This document shows, in pieces, positions 363-4,120 of a stretch of 64,000 nucleotides of DNA. Position numbers and translations under genes: made by a program. Origin of the DNA: Nocardia aurantiaca (GTDB taxonomy: Bacteria > Actinomycetota > Actinomycetes > Mycobacteriales > Mycobacteriaceae). Location: positions 124,001 to 188,000 of the forward strand of contig NZ_WMBB01000008.1 of NCBI RefSeq assembly GCF_009708175.1. The letters are read 5' to 3'. The notes below the pieces were generated by a model that saw only the letters and a program-made list of their open reading frames with translations, searched no databases and had not been told where the DNA came from. Numbering within the stretch: position 1 is the first letter of the stretch; each line of letters starts with the position of its first letter.

Positions 363-833
363 TCAGTGTCCCGGATCACGTGCCGAGGGTTCGCCCGCGC
401 AGGCCGGAGGCGGGATGCTGCGCGACAGCGGGCTCCCCTTCGGATTCACGTAGACGACGGTCAGGGTCAGCGGCCGCGCGCCGCTGTTCCGCGCCAGATG
501 CGCGTGGCCGGGACCGCTCGGCTCTCGGAAGATCCGCCACGGCCGAATGGTGACAGGCGTGCAATCGGCCTTCGGATGATCGAGCGCACCCCCGGTGACC
601 AGCACGAACAAGGTCCCGTCGTGGTAATGCCACCCGGATTGCCCACCGGGAGCGACGACCGTCTGCCGCAGCACGAATTCCCAGCGCGCCAGGCCGAATC
701 GCAGCAAAATCCTGCTGGCCGTCCGGGTCGCCGGGGCCGGATTGGGACGGAAGCCGTATCTGCGGCCGTGGTAGGAGAACGTCACGTCCGCATCATGGCG
801 CAAGCGTGCCACTCGGTGTGGACGCGGCTTCAT
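363..833 (-). CDS. Cupin-domain protein in the MNIO operon
   Basis: 156 aa. A short basic N-terminus is followed by one cupin-2 core with the metal-ligand pattern GGQSGWHYHDGTLFVLVTGG around residues 63-82 and a second-motif His (GHAHLARN). The ATG overlaps the stop of the preceding gene (ATGA, 830-833), so it should be translationally coupled to the SCO6045-like gene. Single-domain cupins bind a metal and may be enzymes, isomerases or sensors. No specific reaction can be assigned. The C-terminal 20 or so residues are Pro-rich and probably disordered. Confidence 0.8.
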   Translation of the reverse strand: MKPRPHRVARLRHDADVTFSYHGRRYGFRPNPAPATRTASRILLRFGLARWEFVLRQTVVAPGGQSGWHYHDGTLFVLVTGGALDHPKADCTPVTIRPWRIFREPSGPGHAHLARNSGARPLTLTVVYVNPKGSPLSRSIPPPACAGEPSARDPGH

Positions 834-1204
834 CGTGTGGCCGGCCGCGCCGATCGATCACTGCGACGCATTCCCCACCTGTGCAACCAGGCTGCTTTCG
901 AGCGTGGGCTGGGCAGGCCGAGATCGTCTGCGAAGGCGACCGCGTCCTCGGCGGTCGTCGTCTTCGGTCGGGTCCTGGCCCACTCCATATATCGGGCGCT
1001 GAAATCCGGTCCGGCGGCGTGGGCCAACCGCGGGAACCTCCGCTTCACCTCGTCGGCCCGCTTGTGCAGCAGCCCCCGGGCGGTGGCGGCGAGATCGTCC
1101 GCGTCGAAGCCGGGCGGTGGCTGTGCACCCGCGACCAGTGCCCGCACCACGGCGGCCTGCTGCTCGGCGAGTGTGCCTGCCCTTGCGGGGGATTCGGTGG
1201 TCAT
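830..1204 (-). CDS. SCO6045-like small protein, probable partner of the MNIO enzyme
   Basis: 124 aa, soluble, Arg/Ala-rich. It resembles the actinobacterial SCO6045-type proteins that sit next to DUF692 genes (recalled family relationship, not searched). N-terminal helix EQQAAVVRALVAGAQPPPGFDADDL, then a helical C-terminal part ending in a basic tail. It overlaps the DUF692 stop (ATGA at 1201-1204) and the cupin start (830-833). MNIO enzymes generally need a small partner that recruits the substrate peptide (MbnC for MbnB, TglI for TglH). By position this protein is the candidate. That role is inference. Confidence 0.7.
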   Translation of the reverse strand: MTTESPARAGTLAEQQAAVVRALVAGAQPPPGFDADDLAATARGLLHKRADEVKRRFPRLAHAAGPDFSARYMEWARTRPKTTTAEDAVAFADDLGLPSPRSKAAWLHRWGMRRSDRSARPATR

Positions 1205-2109
1205 GCCGGGACCGCCGATTGGCGCAGGGTGATGGACGGGCGGCCGGAGGCGGCGGCGATGGCGTTCAGTTCGGCGGCGAGTTCGGTTGCGGGCGGGTAG
1301 TTTCCGTCGCGTTCCAGCATGAGGGGGACGGGCCGGTCCGCGGTGAACTCGGCGACCAGGGCCAGCACCTCCGCGGGGACGGCGTGGACGTGGGTGTCGA
1401 TATAGCGGCCGCCGGACTCATGTCCGCCCGCGACATGGCAGTAGGCCACGCGCTCGGCGGGCAGGCGCAACAGTTCGGTGAGCGGGTCACGTGACGTATT
1501 GCGGGCATTGGCATAGACATTCGCGATATCGAGCAGCAGGTACGCGCCCGTGCGCTCGACCAGCTCCTGCAGGAATTCCGCCTCGGTGTACTCGGCGTCC
1601 GGCCACTCGAACAGCGCCGCGATGTTCTCCACCGCCAGCGGCACATTCACCTGGTCGCTCACGCGGAAGATATTGCGCTCCAGAGCATCGAGCGCCTCCC
1701 GGGTGCGCGGCACCGGCAGCAGGTGCCCGGCCTCCAGGCCGCCCGCCCGCACGAAGGCGATGTGCTCGCTCACCAGCGGCGAACCGAGGGCCCGCGCGCA
1801 CTCGGCGAGATGGGCGACCCGGTGGTCGTCCACCGCCTCCGCGCTGCCGAGCGACAGCGAAATACCGTGCGGCACCACAGGAACGCCCTGCGCCACCAGC
1901 ACGGCCAGTTCCTCGGGCACGGCGACGCCGGGCCGGGGGCGGCGTCCGCGCCATCCGGCTGGACCCGGGCGGCGACCGGAGTCGTTCGGCGCCAGCGTTT
2001 CCGCGATCACTTCGCAGAATCCGATGCCCTCCAGGGCCGCCACCAGACCGCAGATCTCGCGGCGCCAGCCGATGCCCAGCGACCTCTCCGGAAGCGGTGG
2101 ACCGCTCAT
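1201..2109 (-). CDS. DUF692 / MNIO family multinuclear non-haem iron oxidase
   Basis: 302 aa from the ATG at 2109, chosen because it overlaps the upstream stop (ATGA) and the family homology starts there. A longer reading adds 15 Arg-rich residues that do not look native. Family signatures are intact: HGISLSLGS (His81), SEHIAF (Glu115/His116), AVENIA (Glu161/Asn162), LLLDIANVYANARN (Asp194/Asn197), CHVAGGH (His225/His230), DTH (Asp238/His240) and LERDGNYP (Glu266). These match the iron ligands and core of the DUF692 TIM barrel. Characterised members (MbnB, TglH, ChrH, bufferin enzymes) oxidatively rearrange cysteines in ribosomal peptides. Here the likely substrate is the Cys tail of the gene directly upstream. 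Confidence 0.93.
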   Translation of the reverse strand: MSGPPLPERSLGIGWRREICGLVAALEGIGFCEVIAETLAPNDSGRRPGPAGWRGRRPRPGVAVPEELAVLVAQGVPVVPHGISLSLGSAEAVDDHRVAHLAECARALGSPLVSEHIAFVRAGGLEAGHLLPVPRTREALDALERNIFRVSDQVNVPLAVENIAALFEWPDAEYTEAEFLQELVERTGAYLLLDIANVYANARNTSRDPLTELLRLPAERVAYCHVAGGHESGGRYIDTHVHAVPAEVLALVAEFTADRPVPLMLERDGNYPPATELAAELNAIAAASGRPSITLRQSAVPA

Positions 2110-3047
2110 CCGCCGCAGCCTCCTCCGCAGCCACCGCCACAGCTGCTGCCGCAACTACTACTACTGCTGCAACTGCTTCCGCTGTCACTGCTGCCGCAGC
2201 TGGAGCCGCTGCCGCACGAGCTGCTGTCGCTGCCGCCGCCTCCGGCCACCACATTGGCGGCCCCGGCCAGCGCCGGGTCGAGGGTCCACAACACCAGGCC
2301 GCCGAAGAGCGCGACGGCGAGGGCGGCGCTGTCGGGTCCATACGCGGCGTACGCGGGCGAATTCGCCGGGCGCAGATGGCGGTTGCCGGCGTGGGCGGCG
2401 GCGAGGGCGTCGCGGCCGCGCCGGGTCAGGCGCGACGGCCGGCCCACCGCCCAGCTGAGCACGGCCAGCACGATCATGGCGACGATCAGAAACCCGACCG
2501 GGTGATGGGCGGACAGGCCCGCGAACACCCGGACCAGACCCAGCAGCAGCAGTCCCAGCAGTGGAATCCTGGCCGTCCACAGGGCTTTTCGCTGCTTCTC
2601 GCCGAGTAGATAGCCCTCACCGGTGAGCTTCTCCCGCAGGTTGGAGACCGCGGAGCCGGTGGCCGCCACCATATCGGGGATGCGCCGTCGCGGAGAGCCG
2701 AGCAGATGCGCGTACAGCGTGCCGGAGATCGGATCCAGGTTCCGCTGCTCGGTGTCGCTGGGTGTCCGCACCGGTGTCGCGGTGGAGTCGATGATCTGAT
2801 GTCCGCGCAATTGCGCGAGTCCGGCCAGCACCGGCCGCTTGTCGTCGACCAGCATGGCGGTCTCGCTGGGCCGCAGCGGGCCGGCGGGTAGCCACGCCGG
2901 ATCGATCGTGCGCAGCACGCTCGTCCGGCGCGCGAAACCGAAAATCACCGCCACCAAGGCGGCGATCGCATAGAACTGGAGGAAGGCTGGGCCCGATATC
3001 CCCCACGTATCGGTCGCGGCCGCGGCCGCGTCGGTCCGAAGGACCAT
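2106..3047 (-). CDS. TIGR04222-type membrane protein with seven-cysteine Gly/Ser tail
   Basis: 313 aa. The ATG at 3047 is preceded by a GAGGTGG ribosome site 8 bp away, so I prefer it to a start 14 codons upstream. Predicted membrane segments: about 21-38, 161-177, 183-201 and 240-257. A soluble basic domain lies at 40-160 and another basic loop at 205-238. Residues 269-313 are almost only Gly, Ser and Cys, with Cys at 278, 284, 293, 299, 303, 307 and 311. The body matches what I know of the TIGR04222 'near uncomplex' domain, whose members carry low-complexity tails. It heads an operon with DUF692 (4-bp overlap). The tail is the probable substrate of that enzyme. Function otherwise unknown. 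Confidence 0.85.
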   Translation of the reverse strand: MVLRTDAAAAATDTWGISGPAFLQFYAIAALVAVIFGFARRTSVLRTIDPAWLPAGPLRPSETAMLVDDKRPVLAGLAQLRGHQIIDSTATPVRTPSDTEQRNLDPISGTLYAHLLGSPRRRIPDMVAATGSAVSNLREKLTGEGYLLGEKQRKALWTARIPLLGLLLLGLVRVFAGLSAHHPVGFLIVAMIVLAVLSWAVGRPSRLTRRGRDALAAAHAGNRHLRPANSPAYAAYGPDSAALAVALFGGLVLWTLDPALAGAANVVAGGGGSDSSSCGSGSSCGSSDSGSSCSSSSSCGSSCGGGCGGGCGG

Positions 3048-3139
3048 GGCGATTCCACCTCGGGAGTCGTCGTGACTGTCGATCAACACCAGTATCGCCG
3101 CAGAGCGGGTGTTGTGTTATCTCGACAAACCCGGATGAT

Positions 3140-3151: not shown

Positions 3152-4120
3152 GTGCGATTTCTCAGCAAGTTCTACATAGACGGGTTCATCCTGTCGATCC
3201 TTGCGATGGTCGTCCTGGCCAGTATCTTCCCGGCCCGGGGCGATGCGGCCGAGGTCGTGAGCCTGCTGACGAAGATCGCCATCGCCTTGCTGTTCCTGCT
3301 CTATGGCGCCCGCCTGTCACCGCAGGAGGCGATCGCGGGCCTGAAGCACTGGCGGCTGCACGTGACCGTGCTGGCCTGCACCTTCGTCTTGTTCCCGGTG
3401 ATCGGCCTGGCGGCGCGAGTGCTGGTGCCGCACGTGCTCACCGGTGATCTCTACACCGGTGTGCTGTTCCTGTGCCTGGTGCCGTCCACGGTGCAGTCCT
3501 CGATCGCCTTCACCTCCATCGCCAAAGGAAATGTGGCGGGCGCGATCGTGAGCGCCACGGTGTCGAACCTGCTGGGCGTCTTCCTGACTCCGGCGCTGGT
3601 GATCCTGCTCATGAACACCACCGGCCAGGCGAGCGTCGATCCGTCCGCGGTGGTCGACATCGCGTTGCAGCTGCTGGCGCCGTTCTTCCTGGGCCAGCTG
3701 ATCCGGCCGAAGGTCAAGGGTTTCCTGTCCCGTTACGCGGAGCCCACCAAGCTGGTGGACCGCGGTTCCATCCTGCTGGTGGTCTACAGCGCCTTCAGCG
3801 CGGGCATGGTCGAGGGCATCTGGCATGCCATGTCGCCGTGGCGGATTCTGCTGCTGGCCCTGGTGTGCTGCGCCATCCTCGCGATCGTGCTGGTGGCGAC
3901 CGGATTCATCGGCGAGGCGGTGAAATTCGATCGGGGCGACCGAATCGTGGTGGTGTTCTGCGGATCCAAGAAGAGCCTGGCCACCGGCCTGCCCATGGCG
4001 ACGGTCCTGTTCGCCGGGCACTCGGTGGGCCTGGTCGTGCTGCCGCTGATGATGTTCCACCAGATTCAGCTGATCACGTGTGCCGCCCTCGCACAGCGCT
4101 GGGCTCGTAGCGCGCCGTGA
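3152..4120 (+). CDS. Bile acid:sodium symporter (BASS) family transporter
   Basis: 322 aa, GTG start. Roughly ten hydrophobic segments fill the protein, from the first helix (FILSILAMVVLASIFPA) to the last (VGLVVLPLMMFHQIQL). Motifs such as LFLLYGARLS, PSTVQSSIAFTSIAKGN and FCGSKKSLATGLPMA fit the SBF-like/SLC10A7 branch of BASS carriers, which move organic anions with sodium. The last 47 bp overlap the 3' end of the convergent aminotransferase gene. It is divergent from the Cys-tail operon, separated by about 100 bp, but nothing shows a shared role. Confidence 0.88.
   Translation: MRFLSKFYIDGFILSILAMVVLASIFPARGDAAEVVSLLTKIAIALLFLLYGARLSPQEAIAGLKHWRLHVTVLACTFVLFPVIGLAARVLVPHVLTGDLYTGVLFLCLVPSTVQSSIAFTSIAKGNVAGAIVSATVSNLLGVFLTPALVILLMNTTGQASVDPSAVVDIALQLLAPFFLGQLIRPKVKGFLSRYAEPTKLVDRGSILLVVYSAFSAGMVEGIWHAMSPWRILLLALVCCAILAIVLVATGFIGEAVKFDRGDRIVVVFCGSKKSLATGLPMATVLFAGHSVGLVVLPLMMFHQIQLITCAALAQRWARSAP

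Follow-up and report, generated by a model that had tools for sequence, protein, structure and literature searches.

A TIGR04222 operon of Nocardia aurantiaca with a putative MNIO-modified, membrane-anchored cysteine tail

We analyzed a stretch of 64,000 nucleotides from Nocardia aurantiaca (contig NZ_WMBB01000008.1, positions 124,001 to 188,000; called the window below and numbered from its first letter), and in it an operon that codes for a TIGR04222 membrane protein with a Cys-rich C-terminal tail, an enzyme of the MNIO (DUF692) family and a small helical protein. We consider it likely, with a probability of about 0.7, that these three genes make up a cassette producing a membrane-anchored, post-translationally modified Cys tail. 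This interpretation is reasonable and partly supported: it was published earlier as a hypothesis and is strengthened here by genome comparison. The comparison shows linkage of the genes, conservation of the iron ligands of the enzyme, linkage or fusion of the partner, association of the tail Cys with MNIO, and a change of the membrane anchor with the tail kept.

We infer that the MNIO, with an iron cluster, O2 and the small helical partner, would oxidize Cys residues in the low-complexity Cys-Gly/Ser tail that ends the TIGR04222 protein. A cleavable leader would be replaced by the membrane part, which would be a lasting anchor and perhaps also serve for docking. As the likeliest product we propose several 5-thiooxazoles in a row, each formed from a Cys by loss of 4 H; at the membrane, the modified tail may bind copper or other soft metal ions. 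If true, such a tail without any release step would widen the definition of ribosomally synthesized and post-translationally modified peptides (RiPPs).

The original prediction, made from the sequence of the window alone, held such an arrangement to be undescribed. This does not stand: a survey (Antoine et al., 2025, PMC12452194), in its pages on these clusters, counts more than 3,500 TIGR04222 proteins, mostly from Actinomycetota and many adjoining MNIO genes, and names their Gly/Ser/Cys tails as putative substrates. According to the same pages, TIGR04222 proteins make up 40% of the signal-peptide-less Cys proteins whose genes precede MNIO genes. Partners of PME-type 2 are predicted there in at least 10% of the TIGR04222 clusters, many TIGR04222-MNIO clusters seemingly have no partner, and the modifications and roles of these systems are left to further investigation, with no chemistry assigned. 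The window's operon resembles the TIGR04222-MNIO-PME-type 2 clusters described in those pages in its three components, its Gly/Ser/Cys C-terminal tail, its occurrence mostly in Actinomycetota and its small partner (a 115-residue example is given there). Since the tail was already proposed in print as the substrate, this operon is a further example of a predicted kind. Our literature search, thin on subscription journals, found no described TIGR04222 product and no demonstrated modification.

New here are the linkage of the partner, the association of tail Cys with MNIO, the change of anchor and the predicted cytoplasmic location of most tails. These comparisons narrow the hypothesis with respect to which gene is the partner, which residues are candidates for mutation, which mass shift is to be expected and on which side of the membrane.

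Operon and enzyme

Four overlapping genes, all on the minus strand, form the operon, with ATGA overlaps at 2106-2109, 1201-1204 and 830-833. The TIGR04222 domain-containing membrane protein (2106..3047, minus strand; 313 aa from ATG, with an alternative GTG start at 3089) scored 118.3 bits against the NCBIfam model, whose cut-off is 43. Its layout is a first transmembrane segment (TM1), a soluble helical domain, TM2, TM3, an Arg-rich loop, a weakly hydrophobic helix and the Cys tail. The tail (2109..2243, minus strand), the putative MNIO substrate, is 45 residues long, 7 of them Cys and 36 Gly or Ser, with Cys-Gly-Gly at its end. An AlphaFold2 model of the protein had a mean predicted local distance difference test score (pLDDT) of 84.8, with the tail mainly below 50. 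Fold searches with the model returned generic helical matches alone (best Foldseek E 1.9; in VIA, a designed bundle came first with Z 9.5), and the matches listed contained none to a RiPP recognition element (RRE), which excludes nothing.

The MNIO enzyme (1201..2109, minus strand; 302 aa) matched PF05114 with 253.4 bits (E 2.9e-75, cut-off 25). All nine iron ligands of TglH, as given in PMC10880893, were matched in motif and spacing (H81, H116, E161, D194, N197, H225, D238, H240 and E266). Iron-dependent peptide oxidation is its putative function. The nearest named relative is from N. niigatensis (87%). The stretch of residues 39-66 exceeds that of the shorter relatives compared by 16-20 residues; placed by distance to the first ligand, this loop appears to lie roughly at loop L1 of TglH, which docks the partner of TglH. 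The loop is even longer in two genomes of the same genus (G065 and G133).

These readings bear out what the original prediction had claimed about a TIGR04222 protein with a seven-Cys Gly/Ser tail, a DUF692 enzyme with all ligand motifs and genes joined by ATGA overlaps. It had assigned the range 363-3047 to three genes; the three are there, while a fourth coupled gene inside the range, for a cupin-like protein, had gone unmentioned.

The small partner protein

The third gene (830..1204, minus strand) codes for a protein of 124 aa with no family above cut-off in NCBIfam or Pfam. The name "SCO6045-like" comes from the original prediction; no model of that name matched. SCO6045 of Streptomyces coelicolor, not used here, is listed in PMC4991794 with a 3.01-fold rise under oxidative stress that depends on HbpS-SenS-SenR. 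The 124-aa protein probably belongs with partners of the PME-type 2 kind: its gene comes after the MNIO gene and it has no DUF2063 Pfam signature (among relatives, DUF2063 matched 1 of 54, at E 0.039). In alignment A1, which holds the window's protein and 53 of the 77 non-redundant partner sequences (96 in all), residues Q16, F33, L45, K48, R49 and P58 are invariant.

We searched for the partner domain, using a profile made from 12 relatives, at 108 MNIO loci from two sets of genomes, one from the window's family (201 genomes) and one from its class (296 genomes). The loci were 48 of the 63 MNIO places of the family set and 60 of the 77 of the class set, four of the 77 being shared with the family set; MNIO places unlinked to TIGR04222 are thereby covered in part. 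A TIGR04222 gene was considered linked when within 9 kb, which was the case at 80 loci and not at the other 28. The partner domain was found at all 80 linked loci, as a separate gene at 53 and sharing the reading frame of the MNIO at 27, and at 19 of the 28 loci where no TIGR04222 gene was linked. A short form of 59-74 aa, which keeps the N-terminal motif up to the Lys-Arg pair, was present at 12 loci (L047, L055, L057, L058, L061, L062, L064, L066, L067, L068, L071 and L074). A search with A1 through the whole genomes of the class set gave 62 partner places in 60 genomes, all directly 3' of an MNIO; the partner thus occurs in 60 of 66 genomes with MNIO compared to none of 230 genomes without it.

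The proposal that the small protein serves as the MNIO partner is supported by this comparison. Judged by profile matches, the partner is not missing from TIGR04222-MNIO clusters in this sample, where it is often fused or short; the survey's figure for partners, as given in its cluster pages (PMC12452194), was the lower bound cited above. The natural fusions may be seen as parallel to an engineered HvfB-HvfC fusion, reported as active in PMC13419390.

The AlphaFold2 model of the partner had a mean pLDDT of 87 and consists of helices only, whereas TglI has an RRE domain. Its three best matches among 107 aligned PDB chains were all to MNIO partners, though weak (Z below 5): chain C of MbnABC, taken as MbnC (Z 4.5, root-mean-square deviation (rmsd) 3.5, 77 aligned residues; Foldseek E 2.1), NGO1945 (Z 4.3, rmsd 3.5, 74 aligned; Foldseek E 6.9) and chain A of TglHI, taken as TglI from its length (Z 3.9, rmsd 3.6, 104 aligned). 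Unrelated chains came next at Z 3.7-3.3. The profile of the partner alignment gave no useful match among PDB sequences (best E 0.42). A comparison with a DUF2063 profile was dropped, because 1 genome out of 100 from the phylum had a DUF2063 match above cut-off.

At one locus (L073:6757-8313, plus strand), a partner domain forms the N-terminus of an open reading frame (ORF) of 519 aa that also has a hydrophobic stretch and a match to Oxidored_molyb (PF00174, E 1.7e-22). Genes of the PF00174 family are mentioned in the survey's account of some Buf_EGKCG/oxazolin clusters (PMC12452194).

Cysteine tails and their association with MNIO

A Cys tail was defined as having at least 3 Cys in the last 45 residues with Gly+Ser of at least 45%; a second cut-off was 2 Cys in the last 30 residues. 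Among 149 distinct C-termini read (one of the 149 from a protein below the TIGR04222 cut-off), 90 had Cys tails. A Cys-Gly-Gly end was present in 63 of these 90, whereas 2000 shuffles gave 2.2 on average and 7 at most; outside the window's family, where 50 of 53 Cys tails have it, this end was not common (13 of 37 in the rest of the class set). The residue after a tail Cys (n=426) was Gly in 358 cases, Ser in 56, Ala in 11 and Asp in 1, and adjacent Cys pairs did not occur. For the characterized pair FonBC, PMC12668002 reports that Cys-Gly is preferred, that a CGG-containing substrate is modified once and that a charged residue after Cys leaves it unprocessed. The Cys-Gly context of the tails parallels the FonBC preference; we see this as a parallel, not as proof of the same chemistry.

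In the family set, TIGR04222 was above cut-off in 39 genomes and MNIO was found in 56, with 38 genomes having both (Fisher test, 5e-26). The single TIGR04222 genome without MNIO (G172) had a tail without Cys. In the class set, where tails were read at 90 of 91 places (G235 runs off its contig), a Cys tail was present in 34 of 49 TIGR04222-bearing genomes with MNIO and in 1 of 20 without it (Fisher test, 6e-7). The second cut-off gave 33 of 49 versus 2 of 20 (Fisher test, 1.3e-5). Restricted to Gly/Ser-rich tails, the Cys tail was seen at 36 of 40 places with MNIO versus 1 of 6 without. Within one taxonomic family (f18), places with and without tail Cys numbered 8 and 3 when MNIO was present, and 0 and 9 when it was absent. 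The single Cys tail in a genome without MNIO (G275) is at a contig end. In some genomes, for example G042, a Cys-tail gene lies apart from the MNIO, with no linkage between the two.

Change of the membrane anchor

At 13 of the 28 MNIO loci without linked TIGR04222, we observed 15 short proteins with a single TM and the same kind of Cys/Gly/Ser, often His-containing, tail. These loci were picked by hand, and L210, with a Cys-tail ORF in which no TM was detected, was kept out; no Cys-tail ORF was seen at the other 14 of the 28 loci. A quick MNIO tree with 105 rows, supported by SH-aLRT only, requires 3 changes of the anchor label. The tree was made without L076, L083 and L084 (distant MNIOs, no partner) and L077 (the window repeated); its label for TIGR04222-linked rows (TIGR_Cys) takes in L164, whose tail has no Cys. 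Five single-TM rows, which belong to a starred group of six, branch within the TIGR04222-linked rows that come from their own taxonomic family.

Since the anchor is swapped while the tail persists, the tail is the better candidate for the target of the enzyme. The proposal that the tail is the substrate is thus supported by two comparisons, the association of tail Cys with MNIO and the presence of the same tail on swapped anchors. Comparison likewise supports the suggestion that the modified tail probably stays on its membrane anchor.

Membrane side of the tail

Hydropathy was examined in the 45 Cys-tail proteins of alignment A2 (the window's protein and 48 of 110 sequences). TM1, TM2 and TM3 reach 1.6 over 19 residues in 43, 44 and 45 of them, respectively, while the helix before the tail reaches this value in 12. 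All 45 have a net positive charge in the loop that follows TM3 (mean +4.8), and the domain between TM1 and TM2 is weakly net positive. By the positive-inside rule, this charge pattern leads to the prediction that most tails are cytoplasmic, a prediction from simple rules with no trained predictor. It is contrary to PMC12452194, which in its topology statements places the tail outside the cytoplasm. The side of the window's own tail is ambiguous, with a hydropathy of 1.77 for its pre-tail helix (19-residue Kyte-Doolittle).

Of the 15 single-TM proteins, 14 carry a net positive charge over the 25 residues that follow the TM (+1 to +8), L081 having -1, a pattern that points to a cytoplasmic tail. 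In L207 and L209 the N-terminal side is also positive (+5 and +4, with the start chosen), so the orientation of both is ambiguous.

Taken more broadly, these data would fit a proposal in which the modified Cys tails made by actinomycetotal MNIO systems last, face the cytoplasm and line the inside of the membrane with a metal-binding surface built post-translationally, with the tail conserved, the anchors swapped repeatedly and the partner nearly universal and often fused. We put this wider proposal forward tentatively, and would sooner bet against it than for it.

Contrary evidence and alternative explanations

Several observations weigh against a modified, anchored tail. The Fisher tests treat genomes as independent, with no correction for phylogeny, and the family set, with one MNIO-less TIGR04222 genome, has no power by itself to test the association of the tail with MNIO. 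Counted by place, the class set has the Cys tail at 36 of 69 places in MNIO genomes compared to 1 of 21 in the others; it is found at 32 of 50 places no more than 9 kb from an MNIO, leaving 18 of 50 that have none, and at 5 of 40 places farther away or with MNIO absent. Co-occurrence, which had been suggested as a check of the original prediction, is conserved, as the 38 of 39 TIGR04222 genomes with MNIO show, and is broken with respect to the tail at 15 loci of one genus (g50 of family f20, taken as Streptomyces), which keep the MNIO and the partner and in which no Cys-tail ORF was found. Eleven of these loci are beside a tailless TIGR04222 gene and four have no linked TIGR04222, although for one of the four (L205) the contig ends 647 bases past the MNIO match. 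The partner is fused in 14 of the 15, and 14 of the 15 form one clade of the MNIO tree. Four of the genomes with these loci (G269, G296, G316 and G325) carry a distant paralog of TIGR04222 in which a single Cys is close to the C-terminus. Outside this genus, G368 (locus L164) has a TIGR04222 gene near MNIO and a tail without Cys. A plain thiol metal binder is a possible alternative role of the tail. The listed families of neighboring genes gave no sign of a dedicated metal gene, regulator, exporter or peptidase; with no metal-gene neighborhood, copper binding is argued from analogy alone.

We weighed three other explanations. One is that the modified tail is exported and released: the pre-tail helix would be a fourth TM or internal signal, and signal peptidase I would cut at A-x-A to yield, in the window's family, a free Cys-rich RiPP-like peptide. 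Favoring it are the hydropathy of the window's helix, the location of the tails in the survey and an enrichment of A-x-A-like sites after this helix in the window's family, where they occur at 37 of 54 places (one counted twice) compared to a shuffle mean of 23.0, and 0 of 1000 shuffles reach the observed count, though shuffles overstate the significance because the rows are related. With this enrichment, export and cleavage keep some standing in that family. However, such sites are not enriched in the class set (11 of 37, against 10.1 as the mean of shuffles), and the helix falls short of the 1.6 threshold in most Cys-tail proteins; we regard release as unlikely. Still less probable, in our judgment, is that the Cys-rich tail has a metal or redox role without being modified and that the MNIO-partner pair modifies another protein. 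The g50 loci that retain MNIO and partner without a Cys tail would fit this, and MNIOs acting on non-Cys residues are described in the survey (PMC12452194); yet the Cys content of the tails tracks the presence of MNIO, and the same kind of tail persists on a different anchor protein.

That the operon is a bufferin or captophorin system proper appears very improbable. BufB and HvfB are the closest NCBIfam models, and the Cys-Gly context resembles the FonBC preference; however, the enzyme scored below both equivalog cut-offs (176 vs 310 for BufB, 153.7 vs 360 for HvfB), so its chemistry cannot be transferred from BufB, a further point against the proposed product. At E 0.1, none of the four proteins of the operon matched DUF2282 or DUF2063 in Pfam. 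Bufferins and captophorins (BufB, HvfB and FonB; 5-thiooxazole, copper) share with the window's system the MNIO family, the dependence on a partner and, in part, Cys-Gly contexts, but their precursors are mostly small and Sec-exported and their partners are of DUF2063, while the candidate substrate here is a multi-pass TIGR04222 protein and the partner lacks the DUF2063 signature. TglHI (3-thiaglutamate) is alike in the same nine ligand positions of TglH; it and MbnBC (methanobactin) differ in acting on peptide scaffolds, compared to the tail of a membrane protein here. The anchored, modified tail is our preferred explanation.

Neighboring genes

The cupin-like protein (363..833, minus strand) is ATGA-coupled to the operon in the window and lies outside the conserved core. 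It matched Cupin_2 with 24.5 bits, below the Pfam cut-off of 27.2. As a fourth core gene it was rejected, being found within 3 kb in just 12 of 60 named relatives; 1 of these 12 matches overlaps the partner gene, 6 are further away and 5 are on the opposite strand. A sigma-70 promoter scan gave 0 hits, and nothing in the window reached the gathering score in Rfam.

The neighbor list was crude: ORFs of at least 110 aa that passed a GC rule, the four nearest per locus. The neighbor set A3 holds 101 of 127 such ORFs, with partner ORFs, the window's neighbors and some short ORFs dropped by hand. Recurrence among the 101 was at most 4 for the 25 of 130 families listed (SBF-like transporter 4, S33 hydrolase 3, MFS 2). 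In the window, a gene for an SBF-like transporter (PF13593, E 6.1e-97; 3152-4120, plus strand) is divergent from the operon. An S33-type hydrolase was noticed by eye near several g50 loci. In the same genus, a gene for a DUF4142 protein (PF13628, E 1.6e-17) is near a fused MNIO-partner gene (L133:2877-3653, plus strand); ORFs judged similar by eye are near L127, L129, L201 and L204, including loci without a Cys tail, the L133 copy alone having been scanned.

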